Part shown: positions 6,840 through 51,300 of the stretch, piece after piece
How positions within the stretch are numbered: the stretch's first letter is position 1
Layout of the letters: each line of letters opens with the position of its first letter
Assembly (NCBI GenBank): GCA_946699065.1
Contig: CAMPDV010000262.1
Coordinates: 310,001 to 374,000 of the forward strand
Source: Loxodes magnus
Taxonomy: Eukaryota > Ciliophora > Karyorelictea > Loxodida > Loxodidae
DNA length: 64,000 nucleotides
Direction of reading: 5' to 3'
The notes under the pieces: model-generated
The model's input: the letters and a program-made list of their open reading frames with translations, nothing else
The model's database searches: none
What the model was told of the DNA's origin: nothing
Translations under genes and position numbers: made by a program

Positions 6840-9800
6840 TGCGTTAAAGTTTTTTTCCTTCATATCAAATACCTTCATAAATATCTCCATTTATAGATTA
6901 ATATTTTCCTTATCCATGTTTTTTGTCTTAAGACCAATTACCTTCATAAATATCTCCATTTATATAAAACTTAGTTCCTTTTCCTTATCTTTTTCCTTCA
7001 TATCAATTACCTTCATAAATATCTCCATTCTTTGATTCATACTTTCCTAAATCATGCTTTTTGTCTTAAAACCAATCACCTTCATAAATATCTCCATTTA
7101 TAGAAAGTTCTTTTCCTTTTCCTTATCTTTTATCTTTATATCACTATCCTGAATAACTATCTCCATTTTTAAATAAATATTTTCCTATTCCATGTTTTTT
7201 GTCTTAAAACCAATCACCTTCATAAATATCTCCATTTATATAAAACTTAATTCCTTTTCCTTATCTTTTTCCTTCATATCAATTACCTTAATAAATATCT
7301 CCATTTATAGATTAATATTTTCCTTATCCATGTTTTTTGTCTTAAAACCAATCACCTTCATAAATATCTCCATTTATATAAAACTTAATTCCTTTTCCTT
7401 ATCTTTTTCCTTCATATCAATTACCTTAATAAATATCTCCATTTATAGATTAATATTTTCCTTATCCATGTTTTTTGTCTTAAGACCAATCACCTTCATA
7501 AATATCTCTATTTATATAAAATTCTTTTCCTTTTCCTTATCTTTTTCCTTCATATCAATTACCTTAATAAAATTCACCATTTTTAAATAAATATTTTCCT
7601 TATCCATGTTTTTTGTCTTAAAATAAATCCCCTTCATAAATGTCTCCTGTTATTATATACTCAATAGCTTTTTATATATTATTTTCTTTTTCAAATATTA
7701 CTATTATCCCGTTTTCAGTTAAATTTATTAAAATACCGCTCATAAAGTTGCAGTTTTAGTTTTCTTGTTCATTTTAATTAATTGCCATTTATTGTAATGA
7801 GAAATTTAAATTTTTTGCTTATATCCTTTTGTATATTTTATTTAATGCTAAATAATTTTTCTATGTTGAAAAATTTTGATTCATTTATTATTTTCAAAAG
7901 TATATCTAATAAAAGTATAATTTTTAAATTTTTAAATTTGCTTTCTTTTAAAAGTTTTACTTTTAATTTTAATAAAAATCTATTTCTTCTTTTTATTTTT
8001 TAAACTTTATATTTTATTATTAAATTGCATCGCATTTTTTTAATAATTTTTTGAAAATTTCTATAATTTTTATCATTAAATTTTTGTTTAAGTTTCTGTT
8101 TTTTATTTTTATTTGGTTAACTTGTTTTTAAATATAAAATTATCATAAATTAATTGTTATATTTTCTTCTTCAACTAGATTAAGAGTTTTCTTAATAGAT
8201 AAAAACATATTTAAAATTAGGTCGTATTAAAAATTTTTTCTATAATTTTGTTAACTTCATTAACTTAAATTAGACTCTTCAATTACTTATTTTTCAAATT
8301 TCATATATTGAAAAGATCATTTTACAAACTTTTAATCTCATTTTCTTAAATTTTAAATTTCATCCTAATTATTTAATATTTTTTAATTTAAAATTTTATT
8401 CAAAGAGTATATTGCTTTAATTAATTTTTAATATTTCAAATCTATTAAAATCCCTTTTCCATGTTTTTTGCCATTGATAAAGAATCCTTAATAAAATGTT
8501 TATTCTTACTAATTAAATATTTTTCCAAAACCATTTGGCTTTTATTTCAAATTTATTTCTCCTTCATAAGTTTCTTAATCATTTATCTTTATTAAAAAAA
8601 GTTGGCTACTTTCTATATAAATTTTAATTTTCATTATTTAAGTAAATCTTTCTATAAATTTAATAATCAATGCATCATTTATTGATAGTTGAGGAAATTA
8701 TATGTTTCTGCTTAAAAATTAGATATCTAATTTATAATTTTGATTTAATATTTATTAGGAGTATATTATTTTATCAAATTCATAACAAACTCTTTCTATA
8801 GTTCTGTTTTCTAAGTTTATTAGAAGTCCATTTCCATTTTTTAATCCATTTTTAAATTCTCCTTCATAATATATTTCTTTTTGTAAAAGTCTTCCTATAC
8901 CTTCTGGAAATAATTATTAATTAACTTATCCAATATAAATTTTTTATTAAAAAGCAACTTAGGTAGAAATAAAATATCTAGTATATTGTTATGTACACAA
9001 CTTTTGCTATTATAAATAAATCAAATAAAAGTATCAAGAATAATTAGATTCTATATTACCTAGTTTAAGATAAGGAATTTCCTCTATTTTAAACAAAATT
9101 TTAAAAACTTTTGAAAAACCGTGAGTTAATTATATTGTTGATGTAAACTTATATGATTATAAATTGGTATTCTGTGATTCTTTTAATTCAGATGTTTAGG
9201 TTACTTAATTTTTATCAATGGAATAAAATTTATCAGTAACTAATTAAAAACCAATAGTTTCTTATTTAGATTGTGAAGATCTAGTTATTGATGAAATTCA
9301 ATTTTCAACGTTTTATATACCAAGATTTTATATTTTTGGGTTTTAACATAAATTGTACTAGTTTATATTATATTTTTGATAATCAATGATTCCATTCCTA
9401 CAAATTTGCTATAATTAGGTAAAATTACATCTATTTTCTTCATCTCATTAAAGCATTAGAAATAGAAGTCATTATAAGCATTCTCTGTTTTAATTGGGAT
9501 AGTATTTATCTATTAACTATCCTATCAAATTACATAATTATTAATTATCCATTTTTATTTCATTCAATTTAAGATGACTTTAGTTTTTAAGAGTAACAAC
9601 TTCAAGTAAAGTAATTCCTAATGAAAATACATCTGACTTATATAGATTTCTGTCTTTATGAAATATTTATGGAGATTAATAACCTTTAGTAAAGATAGTA
9701 GAATTATAATTTTAAATTGTAATTTAAGGATCTGAATAATCAAAGTCTCCTATTTTTAAATTTCCTTGCTTATCTACAAAAATGTTTTCAGGTTTTATAT

Positions 9801-12800
9801 CTTAATGAGAAATTTCTAAATGTTAAAGGAAAGCAAACGCATCAATAAGAAATGCAGTCGTTTTTTAAATTCAATCAAACTCAAAATTTATTCCGTTTCT
9901 ATCATTGATGAGTTGATATAAAGATCCTTATTCGCAATATTACATCTCTATCCAATATTAATTTTTTTAAGAAACATCATAATTATAAACTTGAACACAA
10001 TATTATTTATATGTCTCATTAGAATTTCATAACTTTTTTATAATTTATTCAATTTTCTGATGATTCTTAGCTGATTTTATAAATTTTATAACCCTTATTT
10101 CCTTTTATCAATTTAATACTTTTAAAATAACTACTTTGTCTATTTCATATACTTTTTCTACTAATGTATAGCCTGGGAATTTATGCTAAAATGTTCATAA
10201 TTTATCTTATTTATTATAAAGATTAAAATAAATTTCTATTATATGATCTGAAGAGAACTAAGAAATATTATATTCATATTATCGAAACTATATAATAATT
10301 TACTTTCAATTATAATTATTTTTCTTTAAAATATCAAATAGAATTTTAGGGTCATTTTAACCAAAAAAATAAGGAGAAATAACGTTTTAATTTTACCAAT
10401 CTAAAGAAATTCAATAAGAAATTTTCTGATTTTCAATAAAAAATAGATGTCTTATGTCTTTATAAGTATCAGTTAATTTTTGCTATACAGCAGAGTAAAA
10501 TTCTTCCATTTTATTACTTTTTAATAGTTTTATGTACTTTTAGTTTTGATCTTTTATTTTTTAGAAGAAATTTATAACGCTAATAACTTATGGAAATTCT
10601 TCAATTTCTTAATAGGAAATTAAATAAACTAGATGAATTAAATCGAATTTATTAAGATTGTTTATAAATTCTTATTTCTAATTTTCCTCTTCAAAATAAT
10701 CTCTACAGAGTTTTAAAATTTCTTTATTCTACTTTTTTCTAAAATTATATCAATTATTTTAATAATCAACTTTTTAAAAAATCAAAATATTAGAATTTTT
10801 CTAAAGCTAAAATAAGTGTGCAATTGTAAAATACATTATAAAATTTTCCTTATTTTTTTCCTCGTATAAGTTAACTTCTAATGAATCTAATTTAGATAAT
10901 TACTCAATTCTTTTTCTTTTAGTAATTTAATTAACAAATTAATACATTTCATCTATCTCTTATATCTGGTTCTTATCATAATTTTAGAAATGTATTTTAA
11001 AATTTTTAGTAATTTTTTAGTATAAAATTAAATATTCTTAAGCAAATCTAAATTTTAACTTTTATTAGCTATTTTCAATTTATATTTCCTCTATTTTTTC
11101 TTATATTTTTCTATAAATTTCTTCAAAATAATTATTTTTTCTATCATTTTATCAATTAATAAGACTTATTTAATTTAATTATTCTATATCTTATTTTATT
11201 TAATCTATTATCATTTAATTTTGCTTAAATTCGTTATTTTGATGTAAGATTCAATCTTCTTATTTTTAATATTTTTTCATTTCTTTCATTTCAATATAAC
11301 TACATATTTTTTAACTTTATTTTAATAAAGTTTCATTTTTAATTTCCTGAAATAAATATTTTTTTCTTTCAATCAATTTTGTTTCTCAAAATTCTAAATA
11401 TTCAATTTAATTCGTTAAACTTCAAATGCGTATATTTTAATATTTTATTTACATTTCTTTAACACAAAAATTTAATTAACTATTATCATTTTTAGCTTCT
11501 ATTGTTTCTATATTTTTCATATTTAAATTATAATCTAATTCTTCTAAATTATTAATTAGAGTGAATCTTTAAGATTTTTTTGTCTCCTCTATATAAAATT
11601 AAGTCATATAAAATCCTCAAAATTACATACTATATTTTAGTTTTTTCTTCTCAAATACATAGAAATAGTTTAACATATCATCTCATTATCTTAATAATTA
11701 ATCATTCAAATATTAATTTAACTAATATTTTTTATAATCTACTATCATATCAATAATTCATTATTTATCTGAAACATATTTTTTATTAACTTTGGGAAAT
11801 AAATTTAGAATTTGCTCAAGACTTTGAGATAATGATTCTTGTAGAATAAATGCCTACAAACTTTAAAGGAGGGAGAAATCATTTTCTATAGATTAAATTA
11901 AATGCTAAGTTAATTACTAAGATTTCAAAATTATATCTAGTTTATTAGATAAAAGTCGAATATCAATTTTTTTATATTCTGTTTAATCTTAATTTTATCT
12001 TTATTCTATAAAAACCGTTATATTTTAAGTAATATTTTATTCTTGAAGTATTTGTTTATTATCACTTATGTTCTGTTCTATATCTTCTAATTCTTCGTAA
12101 AAATAATATTATCAGTCATAGAAGTTATATATTTTTTTTATAATTTCATAAGTTGAAAATTATCTTTCTACTCTATAAAATTTAGATTTTATTTATTCTT
12201 TATCTTATAAATAAAAACCATTTACTTTTCCATTTTATCCCAATAATTTTATCTGTATTATTACCAGATTTTCTTCCCAAACATTTATACTTTCTAGATT
12301 CAAAAGCCTAAATTTCTAATTTTTTATATCCTTTTTATTTCTTAACTTTAATAGTTTCTGCTTTTATTTATCAAAGTTTTAAAAATAAATATGATTTTAA
12401 GTGAGAGAAATTCAATAGAGAAGATGTTAATTTCCAATGAAGAAAATATTTTTTCTTTTTTCTTTTCTTTAGATTCATTTATTTATTTATTCTTTAATTC
12501 CTTTTAATTATTTAATTCTATCATTTTAAATTGATTAAACTATTTCATCTGATCTAATTGGATCGTCATATGAAAACGTTCATAATTTTAGAAATTTAGC
12601 CATTTTTATTTATAAAATATCTTTAAGTATAAAAGCATATAATACTTTTATGAATCCATATTTTAACTCCAAATATTTAAGTAATTTAAATTGTAAGTCT
12701 GTTTTTTAAATTTACTCTCACTTTTCTATTAGTTTTGATTCCTATAAAATCACAAAATTCATTTTATAATTAAGTAAACTATATTCTTTATCTTAGTAAA

Positions 12801-13233
12801 ATAAATAAAACTTTTCTTTCAAAATAATTGGCTAACTTTAATTAAAGCTTATTACTTAATTCTTTTACTTTATTTCTTTTATATTTTATACTTTTTAGTA
12901 AGAATCGTTTATCTAAACCTTTTTCTAAAAATGTTAATTCTCTTCTTCCTTCTGTTCTTTATTTTTAATATCTTAGTCATGTAAAGAATGATCTCTTTCC
13001 AAGTTTTAATTGCTTTCTTTTTCGTTTTACTTTCAATTTGTTTATAATTTATTTATAAGAATAGTTTCTTTAATAAAGTCTGGACACATGTATTAGTTAC
13101 GGACAAGAAAATTAAAAGTTGATAAGACTTTATATTGATAATGAGTGATGCTTTGATTCTCATAGGGTAATTCAGATGAAAGATTTTTTGGATTGGATAA
13201 AATAGTCATAATAAGATGATCTCCTTACGACAT
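6840..13233 (-). CDS. MORN-repeat protein kinase, gene 1 (about 2,130 aa)
   Basis: Large probable signalling kinase. The start is ATG at 13233 (protein MSQGDHLIMTILSNP...), conserved in gene 2. Sampled codons at 13233, 10134, 9807, 7491 and 6939 are all in one frame, so some 6.4 kb stays open without introns if TAA/TAG=Q and TGA=W. Order: N-terminal conserved head; a long charged, probably coiled-coil region (about residues 60-1000); the kinase domain (about 1020-1270) with the beta-3 lysine in VVILKVL (codon at 10122), hinge YWIEMQYCEQGSL, catalytic HQDIKPENI (9807), GDFDYSDP (9747) and GYQSPQIF; scattered MORN-like motifs; then about six 138-bp C-terminal MORN units. The catalytic Asp, Asn and Mg-binding Asp are kept. 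HRD is HQD and DFG is DFD, so activity is uncertain. MORN repeats usually bind membranes or scaffolds. The 3' end is approximate. Confidence 0.8.
6850..7665 (-). repeat. MORN repeat array of gene 1, six 138-bp units
   Basis: The catg landmark recurs at exactly 138 bp: 6915, 7053, 7191, 7329, 7467 and 7605. Each unit encodes 46 residues, that is two MORN motifs, for example NGDIYEGDWFQDKKHGQGKY followed by NGDIYEGNWYEGKRQGKG. The Trp after GD is TGG while the Trp after GN is TGA, within the same unit. Confidence 0.85.
9430..10180 (-). other. Protein kinase catalytic domain of gene 1
   Basis: The motifs follow the eukaryotic kinase order: VVILK, EIRVIKFIK (helix C region), YWIEMQYCEQGSLYQLI (hinge), HLEISHQDIKPENIFV, LKIGDFDYSDP, GYQSPQIF, LYKSDVFSLGITLLEV and LQWDEENR (subdomain XI arginine). 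The domain is non-RD (HQD), DFG is DFD, and the APE glutamate is Gln. Confidence 0.85.
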
Positions 13234-14344
13234 TTTATTTATTTTTTTAAATACCAGTTAATTTTAAATGAAAAATATAATTTTTTTTAAATTTAAAATT
13301 TATAATTAAATCAGCCAAAAACTATAAAAATAGAATATATTTGTTTAATTTTATATTTGTTTTCTATTTTAAACTTTATTAACTTCTTACATTTAATATT
13401 CTACTAAATCTATTGAGAAAGCTTTTATTCTGTTTTATTGCAAATAAAATTTTGGAGCTGCATAAGAACTATAATAATTGTAAAGATGGTATGCTAAAAT
13501 GATAAATGGTAATAAATAACTAGAAATAAATAAATTTAAACTATAATTAAGATATAATTATTTATAAATACTTATATCTTTATACATTTATTTATTTTTC
13601 TTCTAATCTTCTATTGTAGTTTTACTAAATTAATTAAAAACTGAAGATTAAAGTTGCTAATTATTAATTAATATAATTTTACAGAAAAAGTTTAAAAATT
13701 GTATAATGAAAAAGTATTGGAATAAAGCCAATTTTCTAAATTTAAAAGTACAATTAACTACATTTTTTTAGTTATAAAATTAATAAAAACTTGAAAGAAT
13801 ATTAAAATTTGAGTTATTCCAAAACTTTTATTCAAATTATTGATTATAAATATATTAATAAAAAAATATAAAATATAGAAAATTTATGAATATTAACTTA
13901 TATAAAATTAATTTATTTTTAAGAGGAAATATTATTAAACATTTCCTTTAAATTAAAATAATAAATTTTAAAAATATTTAAAATATACAAAATAAAAACA
14001 AATTATCAAAAAAGGCAAATAAGGAAATAAATATTTTAATTTAAACATTATTTTATATTTAAGTAATAATTTTAAAAAAGATTTAAAATAAAATTAATTT
14101 TATAAATAATTAATCAAAAATTAAAGCTTTTATTGAAACAATTGCCTAAAATATATTAAAGCTGCTTTCTATATTTATTAAAAGTGATAAAATTATTATA
14201 ATTAATGAAAAAATAAGCAAATTTGATATAAATGAAATAAATAAAGAAATAGGAATTTATTAATTTAATTTATAGTAAAATAATATTTATTTATTTAAAA
14301 TATCTAGCTTATTTATTAAACTTATTTTTTAAGATTAAGATTAA
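13234..14344. other. AT-rich intergenic DNA
   Basis: This lies between the kinase start and the CCHC gene end. Composition changes sharply at about 14345, where GC-rich coding sequence begins. No element was recognised in the gap. Confidence 0.5.
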
Positions 14345-15310
14345 ATGAGAGTTAACAGTTATGCTAAAAAGCCGGTTAACGTCGGTGTTACTTTTGGACG
14401 GGTTTTTTTGACGGTTTTCCTTCCGCCGTGACACTCTTCGCGGCAAAATGTCACTCTGAGATCAGTCATTAAGAAAATCTTGAATATAAATGTGCGCCCT
14501 TGGGTCTTTCTAGTTCATTTCTTCTGGCGTTAATTTCCTATAAATCCTTCCGTTCGGATCGCAGTATAGCCTCTACTTATTAAAAAACAATTATCTTTCT
14601 TTTTGTTTTTAGGCTTATTCTGGTTTAATCCGCTTCAGTTCTAATGTCCTCCAATATTCTCTTTGTTAGTCTTAAAATTTACTGCAATTTCTAAAGAGAT
14701 GTCAGCTACTGCCACAGCAGTAACAAGATTTGGGCTGACTATATTGGATCTTGGGAGGTGAGGTAGAGGTCTAGGAGACGTGTTCTTACTCCAGATCCAT
14801 GAATTAATTTTACAGGAGAGCAGAATCCGGCTGATAAACCTACGCTTACACGTAATGGGTCTTCTGACCACTCAATTACTCGATAGTGCGACTCTGAAGT
14901 AAAATAGTATCGTGAGCTTATTTGAGCTCCGCTCGCATATCGAAAACCTCCTACTCAAGCTTAACAAGTCTGGCTTAATCCCAAGTACTCAACTTGGTGC
15001 CAGTTTGCATGATTTTTGTTAGAGTTTGCTTGAGGTCCTGTACCTCCTGTCTGAGCTCTGCTTACTCAATGGCTAGCTCGTTATCATAGACAGAGCCGGA
15101 CAGAGAGAAATAGCTCACTGAGGATTGTTGGAGTTAAGTTTTCTTTTTAGGTTTCTCTTCCTGCAGTGGCGTCCCTGGAGAATTCTGTAGATGTTTCTTC
15201 TGGGTCTGGGGAATAGTCTGTTGTTGATATTGGTCCTTTTCTTCCTTGCCCTCTTCCCCTTTTTTATTACCTGTTGGAGGTGGATAGAATCCTTTTTTCA
15301 GACCTGACAT
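14345..15310 (-). CDS. Coiled-coil CCHC zinc-knuckle protein (retroelement ORF1/gag-like), copy a
   Basis: Looks whole: one open frame from ATG at 15310 (MSGLKKGFYPPP...) for about 320 codons. Order: a Pro/Lys/Gln-rich head; coiled coil at about residues 75-150 (LRQEVQDLKQTLTKIM, LEQEVFDMRAELKQ); a Gln-rich linker; a CX2CX4HX4C knuckle CYCCGSSWHLFRNC; an EYW pair; and a downstream box RLYCDPNGRIYRK. The knuckle Trp and a later Trp are TGA. Codons are much richer in G and C than the surroundings, with a sharp edge at the 3' end, which suggests selection or recent arrival. It is divergent from copy b 620 bp away. Zinc knuckles and coiled coils are typical of nucleic-acid-binding ORF1 or gag proteins; a domesticated host gene is also possible. 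No polymerase is adjacent. Confidence 0.75.
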
Positions 15311-15929
15311 TTTGTTAATTTTTTTAAACTTATTTTTTAATTAGATATTAGCCTTTTAAATTAAGATGTTATTATTAAATTTTTAAGACATTTTGAAATT
15401 TCATACCAAGATGAAGCAAATTAATACATTTGATTACATTAATTTAAATCTTTTATTAATGCTCCTAATTAAAATATTAAAGGAAATAGCTAAAATTAGT
15501 TTTGGACAAAAAAATAAATTTAAAAAACCTCACAAGAAAATAAATTTATGCTAGATAAATCAAATTAAATAAAGGAAAAAGTACTAAATACTTAAATGAT
15601 TTTATAACTAAAAAATAAATTTCATCAAAGTAAATCAATCAATATCTTCAAGAGGAATAAACATAAAAATTAAAAAAAATTATAATTAATTTATTTTATT
15701 TGTCCTTTAAAAATGAAAATAAGCAATAGCTTATGATATTTATTATTGATTTATCGACTTAATAGTTCATATTTTTTATCAATTAAAATTAAGTTAGGCT
15801 TAAACATAAAAAAATAATTTATAAATAAAACAGATAGATAATTGAGATAGCAATGAAAAGCTCTTAGTAAATATAATTTTATAAATAAATAATTAATATT
15901 TAATTAAAAAATGGAAATAAGAAAAAAAT
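15311..15929. promoter_or_regulatory. Shared intergenic region of the divergent CCHC pair
   Basis: About 620 bp of AT-rich DNA separates the two start codons, so the two genes could share a bidirectional promoter. No promoter motif was recognised; this rests only on the head-to-head layout. Confidence 0.3.
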
Positions 15930-16805
15930 ATGGAAGGCTTAAAGAAAGGTTTCTACACCACCTCCAGGAAATAGGAGAGGAAACCAGAAGCCACTCTTAA
16001 TCAGTCGTCTTACACTTAACCCTAATCTTCTTCTTAATAAGACTTAACTCCGGTGAAGTAATATTAATTTTCCTTACCCAGGGAAGAATACCCAATTGCT
16101 AGGACAAGCCATGAACTCACTCCGTCAACGCAGGAAAAGCCAAGGAAGCAGCCTAAGTCGGCTCTACATTAGAAGGTGTCGGAAATCTATCCATCCGGGT
16201 AGTTGAGCATAGATCAACTAATCAAGGTAGTCATAAACCTATAGGAAGAGGTTAAGAAGCTCAAGAGCGAAAATACGAAGCTAATGGATTTAATTGAGCA
16301 ACAGGACTCAAGAGAGCTTCGAATGGCAAATTGGGAAAGGGAGCTTGACACTCTCTGGAAGTATTAGTAGGAAGAGTTGAAACAGATGAGCGCCTCAATA
16401 AAAACGATACAAGATTAGAATAAGGAAATAATATTAAGTTAGAGACAAGAAATTCCTAAGATCGACAAAATGGAAATAGAAGAAGAACAGGTAATCAAGA
16501 TGGAGCCGGCTAGAAAGATAAAGAAGAAATGTTACTTTTGTAAAAGCCAGAATCATCTGTACAGAAGATGTAAGAAATTCTAGAAATTCAAGAAAGAATA
16601 CTGAATTAAAGAAGAAAAGGAAAGGAAGAAACTGTATTGCAATAAAGACGGACAAATATACAAGAAAAAATAAAAACAATCAAGAACTTCAAGAATAGAG
16701 AAGATGAGAATTGGGACAAGAGAGAATCAAGAAGAAAAACCACCAAGATTAAAAAACTTGTATTTTATGCGGCGGCTTGAAGCTACTGTAAAACATTTAA
16801 ATTGA
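15930..16805 (+). CDS. Coiled-coil CCHC zinc-knuckle protein, copy b
   Basis: Looks whole. ATG at 15930 gives MEGLKKGFY, matching the start of copy a (MSGLKKGFY). The frame stays open for about 290 codons. Order: a Ser/Gln/Pro-rich head; coiled coil (LQEEVKKLKSENTKLMDLI); a short KMEIEEEQ linker; a CX2CX4HX4C knuckle CYFCKSQNHLYRRC; KEYW; the box KLYCNKDGQIYKK; and a basic tail. The sequence is well diverged from copy a, yet the same domain order and LYC box are kept, as expected for two members of a functional family. Composition is GC-richer than the flanks. The end near 16805 is set by the return of AT-rich DNA. Confidence 0.75.
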
Positions 16806-19182: not shown

Positions 19183-19340
19183 CCTTAGTAGTCAACCATC
19201 TGACCTATTCTATCAGCTTGTCTCTATTGTTTTGCCTTGAATTCCTACTAGGCTTAGTTAGGCGGTGTAGCACTTCATTAGTGCCCCATCCTTTAATATT
19301 CGGAATAGTTTTGGTCTTGCACTTAGCGTTCTTAATTATT
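19183..19340 (-). repeat. Short GC-richer repeat with a 3' box related to the A-element
   Basis: On the minus strand the segment holds a perfect hairpin gcactaatgaagtgc followed by tacaccgcc. The minus-strand A-element copy has cactaatgaggtgccacgc at the matching place. The rest differs. This suggests a second short repeat family sharing a 3' module, or a very diverged A-element. Confidence 0.4.
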
Positions 19341-19985: not shown

Positions 19986-20007
19986 GTAAATAAATAAATA
20001 AAAAATG

Positions 20008-26050: not shown

Positions 26051-26098
26051 AAAAAAGAACGAAATAAAGACAATAATACAAACTTTGTTGATGTTGCA
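26051..26098 (-). repeat. Right arm of the 48-bp inverted repeat
   Basis: Exact reverse complement of 20493-20540. The two arms enclose 5.6 kb. Confidence 0.85.
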
Positions 26099-33699: not shown

Positions 33700-36616
33700 C
33701 TTTACCATACATTTCCTTAATTATCAAAACTTAGTCACAAGAAAAAATATTGTCTTAGTCATTATATAGAAATGATATAACCTTATACTGATAGCTATTA
33801 ATTATGCCTTATAAAATGTGAAGACATTTATTAATTAGCTAATCTTAAGATTATAGACTTATTATACCTATACTAGAAAAAGTTTTAAATTAATTAAAGC
33901 ATTTTTAAATTAACTGAGATAAAAGTTAGCTTTCATTTTATTTATAAAGTAAATGTGGAAGCAAGATTCTAGTGAATATACATAGCTCTTATCTATCGAA
34001 AAAAGTTAAGTGAGTTTGGAAATAGAGAATACGAAATAGAAGCTTTTATTTGGTAAATAAGGCTAAGCATGATGCTTATGTAAGAGCTATGAGGAAAAAG
34101 ACCACTAGCAAAAGCTTAAAAGCAAGGAAGAATAAAAGAACTTTTAGCTTGCTAAAACTTAAAGCTTGTCGCATTAAAAAACTAGAGAAACCTGTGATAA
34201 TTAATAGTATATCGACAGTAAAACCTTAAATGAAAAGCTTAAAATTTCTGATCAACCTTTTAATTACTAAACAAAGAATCTTAACAAAAGTACGAAAAAT
34301 TACAACTAAATCAAGAGCATAATCTTAAAGGATTTTGTTTCTATCTCCAATAAAAAGAGCATCATAAATTAGCCAAGTAAAATTATTTTTCAAAAAGATA
34401 ATTAAAAAATACTAGCAAACAAAGTTTAAGAACCCTAAAAGTAAAAATTAAACAACCTTTAAGTAAAGCCTTGCAATAATAGCTCTATTTCAAAATTTTT
34501 ATAAGAAGCATAAAATTAATGAGCAATTTCTGCTTTATAATAATCACTCCCTTGCAGCCAAACAGTAAAGACACAAATAAAACCAAAATAAACTGATTTG
34601 AGAAGTATGCCGAACAAATAAATTTAGGTTGAAGACACTTAGGCTCCTCATGAATAAGTGTATAAAAGTAATAAATAAATAAGCAGAATTTCTCCTTTAT
34701 ATTATTAAAGTTCTTTTTCAAGTTTAGGCACTATCAGTGAAGAAAGTTTATAAATATCTCCATCAAGTTAGATTTTGATTTATAATGGAAGAATTATCTC
34801 TAATTTATCGCTTCAACTTAATGAAGAAGAAATAGAATAAGAAACTTTAGAAGAAGAAAGAAAAAAAGGATCAGATTAGATGGTACTATTATTTTCTTGC
34901 ATGGCAATCTTACTTATAGTCTATTTGTACTTGATAATTAGACCTGAAGTAATTAGCCTATGAACTTTTATTCTACTTTTTAACTTATTAATCATATTAA
35001 CTCCTCATTCTTATTTCACATTTCAACTTTAAACCCTCATTTTCATAATTTCTTTAATTCTTAAGTGTTCTTAAAATACTTATTATTATTTTATAACTAA
35101 AAGTTGAAAATATTTGATAATTAGGTTGCTGATATAATAAATGACATTTTTTAATAGGTTTCAATTAAAAAAATAAAGAAATAAAAGTATATGAAAAGAG
35201 AAAGTTTCATACACTCTATAGAAAAATCCTTAAAATTAAATGTTTGAAAATATTCAGCTAAGCTAAATGTTTAAAACAGATCAATTTAATTAAAGGCTTT
35301 ATTAAAAATCTTCATCTAAAAAATAAAGTCACTTATCAAATTTATTCGGAGCAAACTTAACTCTATAATGCTAATTTAATTCTAAAGCTGAAGAATGTTA
35401 AAATTCTATCTTTTTATTAAGTAATTATAAGATAAATAGTTATAGGATGCTAATAACTAGTCTCTATTTAATTATTATTTAGGCTTTTATTAAATATAAT
35501 TTTAAATATGAACTATCTAGTTAATAATATAGAAAATCTCATTTAAATATTAAGTTAATTCTATTTTTTTGCTTGCTGATTTAAAAATTTTATATTTTAA
35601 AATTAATATCAAAATCTAATTATGTTAGTAAATTTAATTTTAACTAATATACTTATAAAATGCTTATTTCTATTTTATGCTTATATAGATATAAATATCC
35701 CTTAATTTTATATAGATTTCAAAGATTATATTCTTAAATAAAGAGGTTTAAATTTACCATTAAGAGTTTGAAAGAGATATAGATAAATACTTTATATAGT
35801 AAATATGAAATATAAATAGCAATTATATACTTTCTACTAAAATAATTGAAAATTCTAACTTCTATATATATTTTTAATGTTTTACCTTTTATTTAAAAAT
35901 TAAATTATTACTAATTTCAAAAATGTCTTTAGGCCTAGAAAATATAAGCAATTTTCTAAATATTTATTAATTTTTTATTAATTAGTGTAATAAGCTCTTT
36001 CCTTTCTAGAGGCTTTAAAATTAAATAATTATAATTTTTAATCTATATTTAGTTATTTTTTTATATTGCTAGTTCAATTTATGTTAAATAGGCTTTTATA
36101 TGGTTCTCACTTTCACTTTACTAAGATTAGAAAAAATATAAAAAGTCTCTAAGATTGAGTCTTGATATCAAATACTATTATTTTAATCTGCTCTTATTTA
36201 TTTTGATAATTTCAGAGTTTAATTATCTTCGTTAATATCTTACACTTGTTCATTAAATATATCTTCATATCTTAACTATGATAACAAAGAAATAACTAGT
36301 AGATTCTTCCGTCATTTTCTAATGTTTATTCTCGTTTAATATCTATCTTTAATAAATTATTAGTTTATCAATATTTTTTAGTTAGTTAATCAGACATAAG
36401 CTATAATAAAAGTCTGGACTTTTTAAAAAATTTAATACTATACAATTTTTTAGAATAAGTTCAAATATCTTGCTTATTTTATTTTATTAGACTGAATTTT
36501 TTCAGCCTAGATCTAATTTAAATATTCCATTCACTCACCTTTAGTTTACTCATAATATTTTAATTATTGTACTTCTCAATCTTATTTGGTACTTAATCCT
36601 CTTTAATATTCTTCTA
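33700..36616 (+). CDS. Membrane-protein gene, copy 2 (5' part up to the minisatellite)
   Basis: Long open plus-strand frame with peptides VSFHFIYKVNVEARF, LSEFGNREYEIEAF, IWQIRL, LIVYRQQNLKWKAQNFW, KLQLNQEHNLKGF, FSKRQLKN, LMSNFCFIIITPLQPNSKD, NWFEKYAEQINLGWRHLG, then after a candidate 16-nt intron SPLYYQ, SFSSSLGTISEES and LQLNEEEIEQETLEEERKK, followed by membrane segments (VLLFSCMAILLIVYLYLII, FILLFNLLIIL, LIFIISLILK). Residues and frame are conserved with copy 1 across indels, the best evidence that this is the true frame. Several Trp are TGA. The product is unknown: a basic cytoplasmic N-terminus and multiple C-terminal membrane helices are likely. The start was not identified. Downstream the gene runs into a large minisatellite. 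Confidence 0.55.
34668..34683 (+). other. Candidate 16-nt intron, copy 2
   Basis: Same gtaataaataaataag as in copy 1 at the equivalent position, between LGWRHLGSSWIS and SPLYYQ. Removal restores the conserved frame. Confidence 0.55.
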
Positions 36617-39600
36617 ATGTCTTAGTTTTCTTAACTATTTTTATAGCAATTATTCTCAATTTGTGTCTTAGTTTTCTTAACTATTTTTATAGCAATTATT
36701 CTCAATTTGTGTCTTAGTTTTCTTAACTATTTTTATAGCAATTATTCTCAATTTGTGTCTTAGTTTTCTTAACTATTTTTATAGCAATTATTCTCAATTT
36801 GTGTCTTAGTTTTCTTAACTATTTTTATAGCAATTATTCTCAATTTGTGTCTTAGTTTTCTTAACTATTTTTATAGCAATTATTCTCAATTTGTGTCTTA
36901 GTTTTCTTAACTATTTTTATAGCAATTATTCTCAATTTGTGTCTTAGTTTTCTTAACTATTTTTATAGCAATTATTCTCAATTTGTGTCTTAGTTTTCTT
37001 AACTATTTTTATAGCAATTATTCTCAATTTGTGTCTTAGTTTTCTTAACTATTTTTATAGCAATTATTCTCAATTTGTGTCTTAGTTTTCTTAACTATTT
37101 TTATAGCAATTATTCTCAATTTGTGTCTTAGTTTTCTTAACTATTTTTATAGCAATTATTCTCAATTTGTGTCTTAGTTTTCTTAACTATTTTTATAGCA
37201 ATTATTCTCAATTTGTGTCTTAGTTTTCTTAACTATTTTTATAGCAATTATTCTCAATTTGTGTCTTAGTTTTCTTAACTATTTTTATAGCAATTATTCT
37301 CAATTTGTGTCTTAGTTTTCTTAACTATTTTTATAGCAATTATTCTCAATTTGTGTCTTAGTTTTCTTAACTATTTTTATAGCAATTATTCTCAATTTGT
37401 GTCTTAGTTTTCTTAACTATTTTTATAGCAATTATTCTCAATTTGTGTCTTAGTTTTCTTAACTATTTTTATAGCTCTCAATTTGTGTCTTAGTTTTCTT
37501 AACTATTTTTATAGCAATTATTCTCAATTTGTGTCTTAGTTTTCTTAACTATTTTTATAGCAATTATTCTCAATTTGTGTCTTAGTTTTCTTAACTATTT
37601 TTATAGCAATTATTCTCAATTTGTGTCTTAGTTTTCTTAACTATTTTTATAGCAATTATTCTCAATTTGTGTCTTAGTTTTCTTAACTATTTTTATAGCA
37701 ATTATTCTCAATTTGTGTCTTAGTTTTCTTAACTATTTTTATAGCAATTATTCTCAATTTGTGTCTTAGTTTTCTTAACTATTTTTATAGCAATTATTCT
37801 CAATTTGTGTCTTAGTTTTCTTAACTATTTTTATAGCAATTATTCTCAATTTGTGTCTTAGTTTTCTTAACTATTTTTATAGCAATTATTCTCAATTTGT
37901 GTCTTAGTTTTCTTAACTATTTTTATAGCAATTATTCTCAATTTGTGTCTTAGTTTTCTTAACTATTTTTATAGCAATTATTCTCAATTTGTGTCTTAGT
38001 TTTCTTAACTATTTTTATAGCAATTATTCTCAATTTGTGTCTTAGTTTTCTTAACTATTTTTATAGCAATTATTCTCAATTTGTGTCTTAGTTTTCTTAA
38101 CTATTTTTATAGCAATTATTCTCAATTTGTGTCTTAGTTTTCTTAACTATTTTTATAGCAATTATTCTCAATTTGTGTCTTAGTTTTCTTAACTATTTTT
38201 ATAGCAATTATTCTCAATTTGTGTCTTAGTTTTCTTAACTATTTTTATAGCAATTATTCTCAATTTGTGTCTTAGTTTTCTTAACTATTTTTATAGCAAT
38301 TATTCTCAATTTGTGTCTTAGTTTTCTTAACTATTTTTATAGCAATTATTCTCAATTTGTGTCTTAGTTTTCTTAACTATTTTTATAGCAATTATTCTCA
38401 ATTTGTGTCTTAGTTTTCTTAACTATTTTTATAGCAATTATTCTCAATTTGTGTCTTAGTTTTCTTAACTATTTTTATAGCAATTATTCTCAATTTGTGT
38501 CTTAGTTTTCTTAACTATTTTTATAGCAATTATTCTCAATTTGTGTCTTAGTTTTCTTAACTATTTTTATAGCAATTATTCTCAATTTGTGTCTTAGTTT
38601 TCTTAACTATTTTTATAGCAATTATTCTCAATTTGTGTCTTAGTTTTCTTAACTATTTTTATAGCAATTATTCTCAATTTGTGTCTTAGTTTTCTTAACT
38701 ATTTTTATAGCAATTATTCTCAATTTGTGTCTTAGTTTTCTTAACTATTTTTATAGCAATTATTCTCAATTTGTGTCTTAGTTTTCTTAACTATTTTTAT
38801 AGCAATTATTCTCAATTTGTGTCTTAGTTTTCTTAACTATTTTTATAGCAATTATTCTCAATTTGTGTCTTAGTTTTCTTAACTATTTTTATAGCAATTA
38901 TTCTCAATTTGTGTCTTAGTTTTCTTAACTATTTTTATAGCAATTATTCTCAATTTGTGTCTTAGTTTTCTTAACTATTTTTATAGCAATTATTCTCAAT
39001 TTGTGTCTTAGTTTTCTTAACTATTTTTATAGCAATTATTCTCAATTTGTGTCTTAGTTTTCTTAACTATTTTTATAGCAATTATTCTCAATTTGTGTCT
39101 TAGTTTTCTTAACTATTTTTATAGCAATTATTCTCAATTTGTGTCTTAGTTTTCTTAACTATTTTTATAGCAATTATTCTCAATTTGTGTCTTAGTTTTC
39201 TTAACTATTTTTATAGCAATTATTCTCAATTTGTGTCTTAGTTTTCTTAACTATTTTTATAGCAATTATTCTCAATTTGTGTCTTAGTTTTCTTAACTAT
39301 TTTTATAGCAATTATTCTCAATTTGTGTCTTAGTTTTCTTAACTATTTTTATAGCAATTATTCTCAATTTGTGTCTTAGTTTTCTTAACTATTTTTATAG
39401 CAATTATTCTCAATTTGTGTCTTAGTTTTCTTAACTATTTTTATAGCAATTATTCTCAATTTGTGTCTCTAGTCTTAGTTTTCTTAACTATTTTTATAGC
39501 AATTATTCTCAATTTGTGTCTTAGTTTTCTTAACTATTTTTATAGCAATTATTCTCAATTTGTGTCTTAGTTTTCTTAACTATTTTTATAGCAATTATTC

Positions 39601-41422
39601 TCAATTTGTGTCTTAGTTTTCTTAACTATTTTTATAGCAATTATTCTCAATTTGTGTCTTAGTTTTCTTAACTATTTTTATAGCAATTATTCTCAATTTG
39701 TGTCTTAGTTTTCTTAACTATTTTTATAGCAATTATTCTCAATTTGTGTCTTAGTTTTCTTAACTATTTTTATAGCAATTATTCTCAATTTGTGTCTTAG
39801 TTTTCTTAACTATTTTTATAGCAATTATTCTCAATTTGTGTCTTAGTTTTCTTAACTATTTTTATAGCAATTATTCTCAATTTGTGTCTTAGTTTTCTTA
39901 ACTATTTTTATAGCAATTATTCTCAATTTGTGTCTTAGTTTTCTTAACTATTTTTATAGCAATTATTCTCAATTTGTGTCTTAGTTTTCTTAACTATTTT
40001 TATAGCAATTATTCTCAATTTGTGTCTTAGTTTTCTTAACTATTTTTATAGCAATTATTCTCAATTTGTGTCTTAGTCTTAGTTTTCTTAACTATTTTTA
40101 TAGCAATTATTCTCAATTTGTGTCTTAGTTTTCTTAACTATTTTTATAGCAATTTTTTATTCTCAATTTGTGTCTTAGTTTTCTTAACTATTTTTATAGC
40201 AATTATTCTCAATTTGTGTCTTAGTTTTCTTAACTATTTTTATAGCAATTATTCTCAATTTGTGTCTTAGTTTTCTTAACTATTTTTATAGCAATTATTC
40301 TCAATTTGTGTCTTAGTTTTCTTAACTATTTTTATAGCAATTATTCTCAATTTGTGTCTTAGTTTTCTTAACTATTTTTATAGCAATTATTCTCAATTTG
40401 TGTCTTAGTTTTCTTAACTATTTTTATAGCAATTATTCTCAATTTGTGTCTTAGTTTTCTTAACTATTTTTATAGCAATTATTCTCAATTTGTGTCTTAG
40501 TTTTCTTAACTATTTTTATAGCAATTATTCTCAATTTGTGTCTTAGTTTTCTTAACTATTTTTATAGCAATTATTCTCAATTTGTGTCTTAGTTTTCTTA
40601 ACTATTTTTATAGCAATTATTCTCAATTTGTGTCTTAGTTTTCTTAACTATTTTTATAGCAATTATTCTCAATTTGTGTCTTAGTTTTCTTAACTATTTT
40701 TATAGCAATTATTCTCAATTTGTGTCTTAGTTTTCTTAACTATTTTTATAGCAATTATTCTCAATTTGTGTCTTAGTTTTCTTAACTATTTTTATAGCAA
40801 TTATTCTCAATTTGTGTCTTAGTTTTCTTAACTATTTTTATAGCAATTATTCTCAATTTGTGTCTTAGTTTTCTTAACTATTTTTATAGCAATTATTCTC
40901 AATTTGTGTCTTAGTTTTCTTAACTATTTTTATAGCAATTATTCTCAATTTGTGTCTTAGTTTTCTTAACTATTTTTATAGCAATTATTCTCAATTTGTG
41001 TCTTAGTTTTCTTAACTATTTTTATAGCAATTATTCTCAATTTGTGTCTTAGTTTTCTTAACTATTTTTATAGCAATTATTCTCAATTTGTGTCTTAGTT
41101 TTCTTAACTATTTTTATAGCAATTATTCTCAATTTGTGTCTTAGTTTTCTTAACTATTTTTATAGCAATTATTCTCAATTTGTGTCTTAGTTTTCTTAAC
41201 TATTTTTATAGCAATTATTCTCAATTTGTGTCTTAGTTTTCTTAACTATTTTTATAGCAATTATTCTCAATTTGTGTCTTAGTTTTCTTAACTATTTTTA
41301 TAGCAATTATTCTCAATTTGTGTCTTAGTTTTCTTAACTATTTTTATAGCAATTATTCTCAATTTGTGTCTTAGTTTTCTTAACTATTTTTATAGCAATT
41401 ATTCTCAATTTGCGTCTTAGTT
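36617..41422 (+). repeat. 46-bp minisatellite, about 104 tandem copies
   Basis: The unit gtgtcttagttttcttaac + tatttttatagcaattattc + tcaattt repeats nearly perfectly over 4.8 kb. Four length variants were seen: a 6-bp loss near 37475, a 7-bp gain near 39467, a 6-bp gain near 40076 and a 4-bp gain near 40155. The first and last units carry edge mismatches (atgtctt; gcgtctt). In paralogous copy 1 only one diverged unit exists (about 23416-23470), so the array grew after the duplication. A length of 46 is not a multiple of 3, so reading through would cycle all three frames, each rich in hydrophobic residues. Confidence 0.95.
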
Positions 41423-42480
41423 GCATAATAAAAATATGAAGCTAAAATTATTTTATGGTATCATAGTTTTTGCTTTAGATATTAATTAAGAATATTAAAT
41501 CTCTTAAATAAACCAAATACATTTTAATTTTTGAATTATCAGCTTAAAACTATTAAAATATTTGTTAAATTGACAAATTCTATGATAAGCTATTAATATG
41601 ATTTATATAGGATATTTAGTAAGAATGCTTAGTTGAAAACCCTTAATAATTAAATTTTATAGATAAGTATTTATTATAATTATTAGCTTTGTTTTGTTTT
41701 AATAGCTTACATTCTATATAAGTTTTATAAAAGAATTATTATTTAAATATACGAGTGTGATAATTATAGATATACTTATCTATATTATTAAAAGATATTA
41801 TATCTTTAAATAAATTAATTATTAATAAATCATATTGCTTACTAAGAATAAAATATCAAGTATTTATAACTTATAATTATATTAACTAATTTCTTAATTA
41901 GATAATTATCTATTTTAAATAAATATTATTTATATTTTATATTCCTATTTTTAAACATAATCAATCATCAATTATATACATTTATTACATAAAAATAATT
42001 TAATTTTGCCAAAATAGCTTTTATTTTATATTTTTTTAGAATTAATTGAGAATAATATGAAAAATATTAATTTTTACTTTAATTTGAATAATTTAGTAAA
42101 ATGAAAAGTGACATCCTGTATTGAGAAGTTATGCTTCCTAAGTATGACATTCCTTACTCAGATTCTCCGTATAAAGCTTTAAATAAAAATATTTATTTAG
42201 TTAAGATTTACTTTATCATCTTTAATTAGTTATCACTTTCTATTTTCTCTTGATAAGACTTAAAATATTTTAAAGTTTTTTAAATATAGTATTTTTAATT
42301 ATATATTAATTGTTAATTGTAAAAATTTCTTTATTAGCATTAATAGTTCCATTTAAGTATAATAATCTAGCATCTATTTAATATCTAAATAATTTGTATT
42401 TAGTTAATGTATTTTCTATGTTCTAAGCTTTTTAATTAATTTATTCTTACTAAGTCTTAGATACTGAAACTAAATCAGAA
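41423..42480 (+). CDS. Membrane-protein gene copy 2, region after the minisatellite
   Basis: DNA similarity to copy 1 resumes (41440-42480 against about 23480-24450), with shared words such as tagtttttgctttagatattaatta and ttaaacataatcaatcatca. The reading is hydrophobic and rich in Ile, Asn and Tyr. Whether this part is coding or 3' flank is unclear. Confidence 0.35.
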
Positions 42481-43600: not shown

Positions 43601-43639
43601 TATTTAGCAAACATGTTAAAACTAAATAAAAGCTAGATT

Positions 43640-44175: not shown

Positions 44176-45365
44176 AAGAAGCATCTCTTACAATTAAGAA
44201 GTCCTTAAACTCTTATAGTTAAAATTAATTAATAGTAACAAATAGACTCTCTATTGAGATAAATAACTTTTAATGAATTTAATCTTATATGAGATTTGAT
44301 TGATAATTGAACTTGATTTATAGATGCTATTTTTATTTAATCATATCAAATTTTATTAATATTACAATAATAAAATCAACTTTTAATAATATTTGTTATA
44401 TAATTTCAAAACGGAGTGAGATGCAATTAACTTTTATTTTTTATTGTCCTCTTTAATTATTTTAATAAGTATCCATTATTCCTATTATTTTGCGTTTATT
44501 AAGTTCATTTTATTTATTTTTAGTTCTATTAATAACACTTAAATTTATTTAAACTCATTCTTAATTAATTTACTTATATGAAAAAAATCAAGAAATAATA
44601 AAAATTTTAAATTCACCAATTTTTAGTTTTTATATGTAAAATATTTAGGTTAATTAATTTTTTATTTAAAACATTGAATATAAAATATTTTTTCTGATAT
44701 TTAGAAGCATTTAAATTATTTATTATATTTAATATATAGTAGATATTTAATAATTTATTTATAATACTATTAAATAAATAAAAAAATTATTTTAATATTT
44801 ATTAATTATTTTATAAATGCTTAATTGCTAGTTAAAACTTAGTAATCATTCTTATTTAAATTATACCATTTTGACTTTTAACACTAGCAAATAAAGCAGA
44901 TTTTATGTATAATTTACTATTTATTATCTATTTATCCTTAAATTTCTAGCTTTATCTACTTTTTAGCTAGAATTTTATGATTCTAAAGGATTAATAAAAA
45001 TAATAAAATATATTTAAATTAAGAATTTTAATTTTATTATTATTAAAAATAAGTTTTATTTATTAGTTATGCAAATATTGGATTATGCATTTATTTACTT
45101 TACTAAATTATTGTATTTATTTAATGAATAAAGCTATTTAAACTAAGATAAAAATTTATAAATAAATACTTTTATAAAAATTGCAAAACAGAAAAAAAAA
45201 TTTGAAAATTCCGATCTATAAAAAAAATGAAAGGAATACGCATGCATAAAAAAACGAAAATTAATAGAGAAAAGCGCTTTAAATTTGAATTAATTAATTT
45301 AATGAATATGGTTTAAATAAGTTTAAAAATTACCATTAAGTCTAAAAATTTTCATTTATTGATCC
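44176..45365. other. AT-rich intergenic DNA
   Basis: No motif was recognised between the LINE-like fragment and the MORN array. Confidence 0.45.
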
Positions 45366-45369
45366 TTCT

Positions 45370-48300
45370 TTTCCTTGTTTATTTTAAATCATTATGCAAG
45401 AATCCTTCATATAAATCTCTATATTTAAAGTAATATCTTCCTTTTCCATATAATATATTTTAGAATCAATCACCCTCATAAATTCTTCATTTACAAATTG
45501 TTCTTTTCCGTTTCCTTATCTTTATCCTTCATATCACTAACCTTCGTATATATCACCATTTTTAAATTAATATTTTCCTAATCCGTGTCATTTATTTTAG
45601 AATCAATCACCTTCATAAAAGTCTCCATTTATATACTGTTCTTTTCCTTTTCCCTATCTTTATCCTTCATATCACTAACCTTCGTATATATCTCCTCTTT
45701 TAGATTAATATTTTCCTTATCCGTGTCATTTATTTTAGAATCAATCACCTTCATAAAAGTCTCCATTTATATACTGTTCTTTTCCTTTTCCTTATTTATA
45801 TCCTTCTTATCACTAACCTTCGTATATATCACCATTTTTAAATTAAAATTTTCCTAATCCGTGTCATTTATTTTAGAATCAATCACCTTCATAAAAGTCT
45901 CCATTTATATACTGTTCTATTCCTTTTCCTTATTTATATCTTTCATATCACTAACCTTCGTATATATCACCATTTTTAAATTAAAATTTTCCTAATCCGT
46001 GTCATTTATTTTAGAATCAATCACCTTCATAAAAGTCTCCATTTATATACTGTTTTTTTCCTTTTCCTTATCTTTATCCTTCTTATCACTAACCTTCGTA
46101 TATATCACCATTTTTAAATTAAAATTTTCCTAATCCGTGTCATTTATTTTAGAATCAATCACCTTCATAAAAGTCTCCATTTATATACTGTTCTTTTCCT
46201 TTTCCTTATTTATATCCTTCTTATCACTAACCTTCGTATATATCACCATTTTTAAATTAATATTTTCCTTATCCGTGTCATTTATTTTAGAATCAATCAC
46301 CTTCATAAAAGTCTCCATTTGTATACTGTTCTATTCCTTTTCCTTATTTTTATCCTTCATATCACTAACCTTCGTATATATCACCATTTTTAAATTAAAA
46401 TTTTCCTAATCCGTGTCATTTATTTTAGAATCAATCACCTTCATAAAAGTCTCCATTTGTATACTGTTTTTTTCCTTTTCCTTATCTTTATCCTTCTTAT
46501 CACTAACCTTCGTATATATCACCATTTTTAAATTAAAATTTTCCTAATCCGTGTCATTTATTTTAGAATCAATCACCTTCATAAAAGTCTCCATTTATAT
46601 ACTGTTTTTTTCCTTTTCCTTATCTTTATCCTTCTTATCACTAACCTTCGTATATATCACCATTTTTAAATTAAAATTTTCCTAATCCGTGTCATTTATT
46701 TTAGAATCAATCACCTTCATAAAAGTCTCCATTTATATACTGTTCTTTTCCTTTTCCTTATTTATATCTTTCATATCACTAACCTTCGTATATATCACCA
46801 TTTTTAAATTAAAATTTTCCTTATCCGTGTCATTTATTTCAGAATCAATCACCTTCATAAAAGTCTCCATTTGTATACTGTTCTATTCCTTTTCCTTATT
46901 TATATCTTTCATATCACTAACCTTCGTATATATCACCATTTTTAAATTAAAATTTTCCTTATCCGTGTCATTTATTTCAGAATCAATCACCTTCATAAAA
47001 GTCTCCATTTGTATACTGTTCTATTCCTTTTCCTTATTTTTATCCTTCATATCACTAACCTTCGTATATATCTCCATTTTTAAATTAATATTTTCCTTAT
47101 CCGTGTCATTTATTTTAGAATCAATCACCTTCATAAAAGTCTCCATTTGTATACTGTTTTTTTCCTTTTCCTTATCTTTATCCTTCTTATCACTAACCTT
47201 CGTATATATCACCATTTTTAAATTAAAATTTTCCTAATCCGTGTCTTTTATTTTAGAATCAATCACCTTCATAAAAGTCTCCATTTATATACTGTTCTAT
47301 TCCTTTTCCTTATTTATATCCTTCATATCACTAACCTTCGTATATAGCTCCTCTTTTAAATTAATATTTTCCTTATCCGTGTCATTTATTTTAGAATCAA
47401 TCACCTTCATAAAAGTCTCCATTTATATACTGTTCTATTCCTTTTCCTTATTTTTATCCTTCATATCACTAACCTTCGTATATATCTCCACTTTTAAATT
47501 AATATTTTCCTAATCCGTGTCATTTATTTTAGAATCAATCACCTTCATAAAAGTCTCCATTTATATACTGTTCTTTTCCTTTTCCTTATTTATATCCTTC
47601 TTATCACTAACCTTCGTATATATCACCATTTTTAAATTAATATTTTCCTTATCCGTGTCATTTATTTTAGAATCAATCACCTTCATAAAAGTCTCCATTT
47701 ATATACTGTTCTTTTCCTTTTCCTTATCTTTATCCTTCTTATCACTAACCTTCGTATATATCACCATTTTTAAATTAAAATTTTCCTTATCCGTGTCATT
47801 TATTTTAGAATCAATCACCTTCATAAAAGTCTCCATTTGTATACTGTTCTATTCCTTTTCCTTATTTTCATCCTTCATATCACTAACCTTCGTATATATC
47901 TCCACTTTTAAATTAATATTTTCCTAATCCGTGTCATTTATTTTAGAATCAATCACCTTCATAAAAGTCTCCATTTATATACTGTTTTTTTCCTTTTCCT
48001 TATCTTTATCTTTCATATCACTAACCTTCGTATATATCACCATTTTTAAATTAAAATTTTCCTAATCCGTGTCATTTATTTTAGAATCAATCACCTTCAT
48101 AAAAGTCTCCATTTATATACTGTTCTTTTCCTTTTCCTTATTTTTATCTTTCATATCACTAACCTTCGTATATATCACCATTTTTAAATTAAAATTTTCC
48201 TAATCCGTGTCATTTATTTTAGAATCAATCACCTTCATAAAAGTCTCCATTTATATACTGTTCTTTTCCTTTTCCTTATTTATATCTTTCATATCACTAA

Positions 48301-51300
48301 CCTTCGTATATATCTCCTCTTTTAGATTAATATTTTCCTAATCCGTGTCATTTATTTTAGAATCAATCACCTTCATAAATATTTCAATTTATATAAATTT
48401 AAATACCTTTACCTTATCTTTATCCTTCTTATCACTAACCTTCGTATATATCTCCACTTTTAAATTAATATTTTCCTTATCCGTGTCATTTATTTTAGAA
48501 TCAATCACCTTCATAAAAGTCTCCATTTATATACTGTTCTTTTCCTTTTCCTTATTTTTATCTTTCATATCACTAACCTTCGTATATAGCTCCACTTTTC
48601 ACACAAAATTTACCTTATCCATGTTTTAAATTTTGGAATCAATCACCTTCATAAAAGTCTCCATTTTTTTTATATTCAATTACTTTATAATTATTTTCTA
48701 TTGTTTTTATTTGCATTATTATTTTATTTTCGTTTTTTTCTATAAATATACCATTTTTTAAAATTAAATTTTTATTTTTTTCTTCCTTATATAGCTATTA
48801 AAAGTCATCTTATTATTATATTTGCTAATTCTTTGTTTCATTTTTTTCAACAATTTTATTTTGATAATAAATTTTATTTGTTTATTTCAAAATCTAATTA
48901 GATTTTCCATTTTCAAGATTTTCTTTTATTTGTTTTATTTTTAAAGTTAGTTATTTTTTAATATTTATTTTATTTTATTTTATAATTTTTTTAACTTATT
49001 TTAATAGTTATAAATCTAAAAGCATATTTTAATGTTATTTATTATCAATTTCTATTTAAAGGTTTTTTATAGTTTTCATTATTTTTTTAAAATAGAATTC
49101 ATTTATATTTCTATTATTTATTTTTTGCTTTTGTTATTTTGTAATATAAAGTTACCATAAATTAATTTCTTTATATTCTTTTTCAATTACTGGAAATATG
49201 TCTTTTATTATATAAAATATTCACTAATATAATTCATTCTTCATCAAAAGCCAAATATTTTCTAGATCTTATTAACTTAACTTATAATTTATATCTTGTA
49301 TATTCTTAAATTTTTTATATTAAAACGACCATTATACTAACTTTTTATCTCATTTTCTTATAATTTATAAGTCTTATTGATCAGTTATTGTTTTTTAATT
49401 TAAAAGTTTATTAAAATTGTAGCTTACTTTGAATGCTTATTAATCATTCAATTCTATTAAAATACCTTTTCCATGTTTTTAACCGTTTATAAAGAATCCT
49501 TGAAATAATGTTTTTTCTTACTTATTAAATATTCTTCCATAACCATGTAATTTTTATTGTAAGTTTATTTCTCCCTCAAATATTTCTTATTCATTTATAT
49601 TAATTAAGTAAATTTAGTTGCTTTCTATAATAATCTTCGTCTTCATAATTTCAGTGAATCTGTCTATTAGTTTCTTAATCCTGTTGTCATTTATTAATAG
49701 TTAAGGAAACTATATGTTTTAATTTAAAATTTAGATATCTAAGCTCTTATTTAGATTTAATATTTATTAGGAGTATAGTATTTTATCATATTCATAATAA
49801 ACTCTTTCTATTGTTTTATTTTATAAGTTTATGAGAAGTCCATTTCCATTTTTTAATCCATTTATAAATTCTCCTTCATAATATATTTCATCATGCAAAA
49901 GTCTTCCTGCTCCTTCAAGTAATAATTATTAATTAAGTTATCCAATGTAAAGTTTTTACTGATAAGCAATTTAACTAGAGATAAAGTATTTAGTATATTG
50001 TTATGTATAAAGCTTTTATTACTATAGATATATCAAGTAGAAATATTAAGAATAATTAAATTCTATATCATCTAGTTTAAGATAAGGAATTTTCTCAATT
50101 TTATCCAAAGTTTGCAATGCATTTTTATATTTATGAGATAACTATACTGATTATGAGAGTTTAGAAGATTCTTATTTGGCATTTTATAATCTTCAAAGAT
50201 CAGACGATTAAGAGGACTATATTTTATTAGCATACTGAGACATATCAGAGAATAATTATTATAAAAAATCAGATTCTTATTATATACTTTGAGTTTTTGC
50301 TTTATTTTTACTCTCAAAATTATCATAAATGAAAACATTTGGGTTATGGCATAAATTTATCTTAAATTTTTAATAATCGATGATTTTATTTCTATAAATA
50401 TGTTATAATTATTTAAAATCACATCTCTATTCTTCATCTCATTAAAGCATCAGAAATAGAATTCATTATAAGAGTTCTTTACTTTAGTTAGGATAATATT
50501 CATCTATTAGCTGTCCTAACAAATGATATAATTCTTAGTTATCTTTTTCTTATTCATTTAATTTAAGATAATTTTGGTTTTTAAGAGTAATAACTTCAAG
50601 TAAAGTAATTCCTAAGGAAAATACATCTGATTTGTATAGATTTCTATTTTGATTGAATATTTATGGAGATTAATAACCTTCAGTATAGGCAGTGTAATTT
50701 TAATTTTAAAATAAGCTTTAAGGATCTGAGTAATCAAAATCTCCTACTTTTAAATTTTCTTGATTATCTACAAAAATGTTAGGAGGCTTGATATCTTGAT
50801 GTGAAATTTCTAAATGTTAAAGAAAGGCAAATGCTTCTATAAGAAATAATATGTTTTTAAGAATTCAATCGTACTCAAAATTTTATCCGTTTCTATTTTT
50901 AATGAGTTTATCTAAGGATTTTTTTTCACAATATTACATTTCTATCCAATATGAATTCTTTTATGAAATATCATAGTTATAAATTTGAACACAATATTAA
51001 ATATATGGCTCATTAGAATTTCATAACTTTTATATAATTTATTCAATTCTTTTATGATTTCTAGTTGTTTTCATAAATTTTATAATTCTAACTTCTTTTT
51101 ATTGGTTTAATGCTTTTAAAATATTTACTTTATTTGTTTCATATAAATTTTCCATTAATACATAGCCTGGTAATTTATGTTGATATGCTCTCAAAATGTC
51201 TTGATCTCTATGTTGATTAAAATAAACTTCTGTAATATTATTTGATGAAATTTTTAAAGAAATTCTATATTCATATTAACGAAACTATACTACAATTTAT

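Follow-up and report, generated by a model that had tools for sequence, protein, structure and literature searches.

The 64,000-nucleotide stretch analyzed here (hereafter the window; positions 310,001 to 374,000 of contig CAMPDV010000262.1, assembly GCA_946699065.1, of the karyorelict ciliate Loxodes magnus) holds two long paralogous genes on its minus strand, each encoding a protein kinase domain and an array of MORN repeats (Table 1), with triplets that are stops in the standard code running through both reading frames. A sequence-only reading of the window had proposed that all three standard stops are sense codons here, with TGA as Trp, and that true stops must be set by context. Our analysis bears this out: the window, which belongs to the somatic genome, almost certainly shows the known ambiguous code of the species, NCBI translation table 27, in which TAA and TAG specify Gln and TGA specifies either Trp or stop.

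Neither gene stays in a single frame unless TAA, TAG and TGA are all translated, and the long single frames noted earlier were recovered at 2128 codons for gene 1 (counted to position 6849; 179 TAA, 26 TAG and 35 TGA in frame) and 2922 codons for gene 2 (counted to position 45480; 264 TAA, 57 TAG and 91 TGA). Frames were assigned by homology; counts of stop triplets do not distinguish the gene frame from the others. The two proteins share their start, MSQGDHLIM, and when the three codons were translated as residues, Pfam returned MORN and Pkinase at 183.2 and 100.3 bits for gene 1 and at 611.9 and 86.4 bits for gene 2. With X placed at every TAA, TAG and TGA, the gene 1 scores dropped to 96.6 (MORN) and 92.0 bits (Pkinase). 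No Pfam family was found in the two remaining minus-strand frames of the gene 1 kinase span.

The conserved Trp of the MORN repeat bears on the meaning of TGA. As the sequence-only reading had noted, this column alternates within gene 1 (6 TGA, 5 TGG and 1 TTA over 12 repeats); all six TGA and all five TGG fall at one offset of the 23-residue unit, and the array holds no TGA elsewhere. When TGA in the gene 1 array was set in turn to each of the 20 residues, the Pfam MORN profile scored best with Trp (196.7 bits), followed by Phe (190.6 bits) and Tyr (175.9 bits). In gene 2 the column is TGA in 46/46 repeats, matching the earlier estimate of about 46, though these are copies within a 138-bp tandem repeat (94% matches) and therefore not independent. 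Paralog codon pairing was assessed outside the arrays, over 1839 aligned codons ahead of them and with 2000 shuffles as the control. TGA or TGG stood opposite TGA or TGG in 19 columns (shuffled mean 0.4, maximum 5), and TAA or TAG stood opposite CAA or CAG in 31 columns (shuffled mean 8.5, maximum 20). The HQD motif of the kinase is an example of the latter, being CAT TAA GAT in gene 1 and CAT CAA GAT in gene 2, again as first reported. The predicted true stop of gene 1 is the first TGA past its MORN array, at 6729-6727.

Table 1. Positions of the window genes and of tRNA-Trp(CCA) genes elsewhere in the assembly.
Feature	Location	Strand	Remarks
Gene 1	6727..13233	minus	ATG at 13233; kinase + 12 MORN repeats; open frame requires TAA/TAG/TGA to be sense codons
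Gene 1 MORN array	6849..7647	minus	12 repeats; Pfam MORN 196.7 bits with TGA = Trp
Gene 1 protein kinase domain	9400..10260	minus	Pfam Pkinase 106.6 bits with TAA/TAG = Gln
Gene 2	54245 to about 45479	minus	ATG at 54245; gene 1 paralog; kinase + MORN array; single frame
Gene 2 MORN array	45480..48662	minus	46 repeats, all with TGA in the Trp column
Gene 2 last-repeat continuation	45352..45480	minus	neighboring frame; TGA at 45354-45352 a possible stop
tRNA-Trp(CCA) array	contig C67:482318-491201		48 copies, unit about 187 bp; A-C at 27-43; L014-L033
tRNA-Trp(CCA) array	contig C148:157310-173042		unit about 241 bp; U-C at 27-43; L095, L100
tRNA-Trp(CCA) with 5-bp stem	contig C110:362509, 422983, 470102		3 copies, U27-A43; L096, L097

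Two meanings of TGA in actin and eRF1 genes

Genome-wide searches were run over the assembly of 705,730,643 bases. Among 96 actin-family matches, 6 loci were aligned to two solved actins, 5 of the 6 having been picked because they carry TGA. Within these alignments, 6/11 TGAs occupied reference Trp columns (binomial P = 3e-10 for 10 TGAs, one in the tail of locus L093 being left out), at conserved Trp columns 79, 86 and 340 of loci that are otherwise colinear with the references; TGG occupied Trp in 12/15 cells. Together with the MORN column and the MORN profile scores, this shows that UGA encodes Trp inside coding sequence. TGA was also the codon directly past the last reference residue in 5/6 loci, the sixth (L093) being a divergent actin-related gene with no reference match at its end. 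In both copies of the termination factor gene eRF1, the first TGA follows the C-terminal DPDEDFL, with a further in-frame TGA within two codons. All seven gene ends located by homology (five actins and two eRF1) are therefore TGA, and every one of these seven genes has TAA or TAG internally. From TGA at Trp columns and TGA at gene ends it follows that TGA has both meanings, as a stop and as Trp, and three actin-family loci (L088, L089 and L091) contain both within the same gene.

The same genes bear on TAA and TAG. The strongest single point for TAA as Gln is the catalytic Gln of the eRF1 GGQ motif, which is a TAA codon in both genomic copies. When one of these copies (L002) was aligned to a human-type chain, Gln stood opposite 6/12 TAA and 2/6 TAG codons. 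In the actin family, Gln columns were the commonest for TAA (10/52), and TAG was less clear (Met 5 and Gln 4, of 32). Together with the paralog columns, these observations show that UAA and UAG encode Gln, as in karyorelict table 27.

The two eRF1 copies (L002 and L003) lie about 35 kb apart on contig C196. The top match of the eRF1_1 profile, on contig C2, was rejected as eRF1; by eye it resembles the related Dom34/Pelota protein. Both genuine copies keep NIKS and carry the changes E55A, T58R, S70A, Y125F, D128E and K130T, with the S60 position encoded by TAA. Inspection of eRF1, which had been suggested as a check on the code, gave the motifs RAQNIKS, FLCENTF and Ala70, identical to the three entries compared for Loxodes striatus in Table 2 of PMC4695839.

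tRNA genes

The exact anticodon arm of tRNA-Trp(CCA) occurs in 127 copies in the assembly, and in 124 of them positions 27 and 43, which top the anticodon stem, are unpaired (52 A27-C43 and 72 U27-C43; the other 3 are paired U27-A43). Most copies sit in two tandem arrays that differ in their unpaired 27-43, one A-C and the other U-C (Table 1). ARAGORN called sampled copies tRNA-Trp cca, and Rfam scored a copy with the 5-bp stem (L096) at 60.4 bits, versus 58.2 and 58.9 bits for the unpaired types. The two 5-bp-stem copies examined carry an additional base in the T arm, and because of this base such copies may be decaying. By the unpaired 27-43, this tRNA-Trp(CCA) is of the type with a 4-bp anticodon stem described in Blastocrithidia, Condylostoma, Blepharisma and Loxodes (PMC13092985). 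The likeness lies in the unpaired position. Differences from that description are that the mismatch is A-C or U-C here and 26C.42U (in the numbering of PMC13092985) in Blastocrithidia and Condylostoma, and that three copies here have a full 5-bp stem.

A tRNA-Trp with a UCA anticodon, proposed by the sequence-only reading as something to look for, did not emerge: no tRNA was present at 30/30 loci inspected, of 42 pattern hits (the reversed-pattern control gave 103 hits), with the proviso that the pattern fixes a B-box consensus, so that a deviant tRNA gene could escape it. This outcome fits the 4-bp-stem tRNA-Trp(CCA) reported for Loxodes. For Condylostoma magnum, PMC4967479 likewise reports no UCA tRNA-Trp. 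Patterns for tRNA-Gln gave 331 hits with the UUA anticodon and 133 with CUA across the assembly. The hits inspected were rejected as tRNA-Gln, ARAGORN calling tRNA-Lys(UUU) at 6/12 loci and tRNA-Arg(UCU) at 11/12, out of register, and nothing at the rest. Fifteen further tRNA-Gln(UUA/CUA) candidates yielded no tRNA by ARAGORN and two weak tRNA-like matches by Rfam (L101, 37.5 bits; L108, 36.6 bits), which were not counted as tRNA-Gln.

It is conceivable, if unlikely, that the tRNA-Trp(CCA) genes form separate pools, the A-C and U-C arrays reading both UGG and UGA and the few 5-bp-stem copies reading only UGG. Were this so, the copy number of the arrays would set the strength of UGA as Trp relative to eRF1. 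The word tRNA does not occur in the main text of the L. magnus paper (PMC11441545), and the arrays may be of use to researchers working on UGA decoding.

The code and its alternatives

The genetic code of L. magnus has been described as table 27, with UGA the sole stop and also Trp when far enough from the poly-A tail; depletion of UGA immediately ahead of the true stop and a short 3' untranslated region as context were reported alongside it (PMC11441545). The same paper gives macronuclear and micronuclear assemblies of 706 and 848 Mbp. The code found here is thus already known, in a known genome. It is the same as that of other karyorelicts in having UAA and UAG as sense and UGA as Trp or stop, and no difference was found from the accounts of L. 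magnus (PMC11441545) and Parduczia (PMC4967479). The earlier suggestion of a karyorelict- or Condylostoma-like code with stops set by context is supported by the L. magnus paper, by TGA in both uses in the actins and by TAA at the eRF1 GGQ, and is refined in that the three codons differ in role: TGA is dual and, according to PMC11441545, the only stop. On this reading TAA and TAG are decoded as Gln, and TGA as Trp within genes and as stop near the mRNA end. The literature would assign decoding of UGA to the 4-bp-stem tRNA-Trp(CCA); near the mRNA end this tRNA would compete with eRF1 on the ribosome, with the poly-A context probably deciding the outcome. A code in which a codon's meaning varies with how far it lies from the end of the mRNA is remarkable, but it was described in 2016 for Parduczia and Condylostoma (PMC4967479) and later for karyorelicts including Loxodes (PMC11441545). 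The window contributes a compact natural illustration, a single gene whose repeats switch between TGG and TGA at one Trp column.

Apart from the tandem nature of the gene 2 array, several observations weigh against this assignment. For TGA as Trp, gene 2 has 21 extra TGA at a second offset of the MORN unit, where gene 1 has Lys; just 3 of the 19 TGA/TGG paralog columns are mixed TGA/TGG; TGA outside the arrays is also opposite L (3), TAA (3), N (2), K (2) and Y, H, E, R and Q (1 each); and 5/11 actin-family TGAs fall off Trp columns (38 and 43 in L088, 334 in L092, 153 and 381 in L093). For TAA and TAG as Gln, the MORN profile ranked His (198.7 bits) above Gln (196.7 bits) in a trial of nine residues, and the kinase profile gave a near tie in a trial of six (Gln 106.6, Glu 106.0 and Arg 105.5 bits), so profile scores by themselves do not settle the assignment; tRNA-Gln(UUA/CUA) was not recovered among the inspected pattern hits or the 15 further candidates. 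As for the frames, an alternative frame of the gene 1 span also holds 27 TGA, and the final MORN repeat of gene 2 runs on in a neighboring frame from about 45480, a change for which an indel, a short intron or an assembly error may be responsible.

A code of the Condylostoma type, in which each of the three codons is both sense and stop, shares with the window genes the sense use of UAA, UAG and UGA, with UGA as Trp, and PMC4967479 reports that in Condylostoma magnum each of the three also ends translation. It is nonetheless very unlikely to apply here: the 7/7 homology-placed gene ends are TGA, all seven genes have TAA or TAG internally, and UGA is the sole stop according to the L. magnus paper. 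We attach even less credence to the view that genes 1 and 2 are decayed pseudogenes whose in-frame stops are disabling mutations. The frame change in the last repeat of gene 2 and its 21 TGA opposite paralog Lys would suit decay, but the ratio of nonsynonymous to synonymous substitution between the paralogs (dN/dS = 0.50) argues against the genes being unconstrained, a circumstance that would have told against the sequence-only reading; moreover, TGA in the gene 1 array lies at the Trp offset alone (6/6), and the same codons recur in independent conserved genes, the actins and eRF1. The ordinary ciliate code 6 (TAA and TAG as Gln and TGA solely as stop, any TGA within a gene being only apparent and produced by introns or errors) would account for TGA at actin and eRF1 gene ends, but its probability is negligible given 35 and 91 in-frame TGA in genes 1 and 2 and actin TGAs at three conserved Trp columns of genes otherwise colinear, where short introns would not be expected to fall.

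Other sequence in the window

Neither ARAGORN nor Rfam found anything in the window, the former returning no tRNA and the latter no match. No Pfam family was found in the six frames of window positions 14300-16800, nor in nine frames of three further stretches. An open frame of 2269 amino acids at 35240-42049 was rejected as a gene, as it overlies a 46-bp satellite (36618-41422; 104 copies, 99% matches) that yields a spurious long open frame. On the plus strand, a zinc-knuckle-like motif of the form CX2CX4HX4C was noted by eye at 16530-16571, within a GC-richer stretch that is perhaps part of a retroelement.

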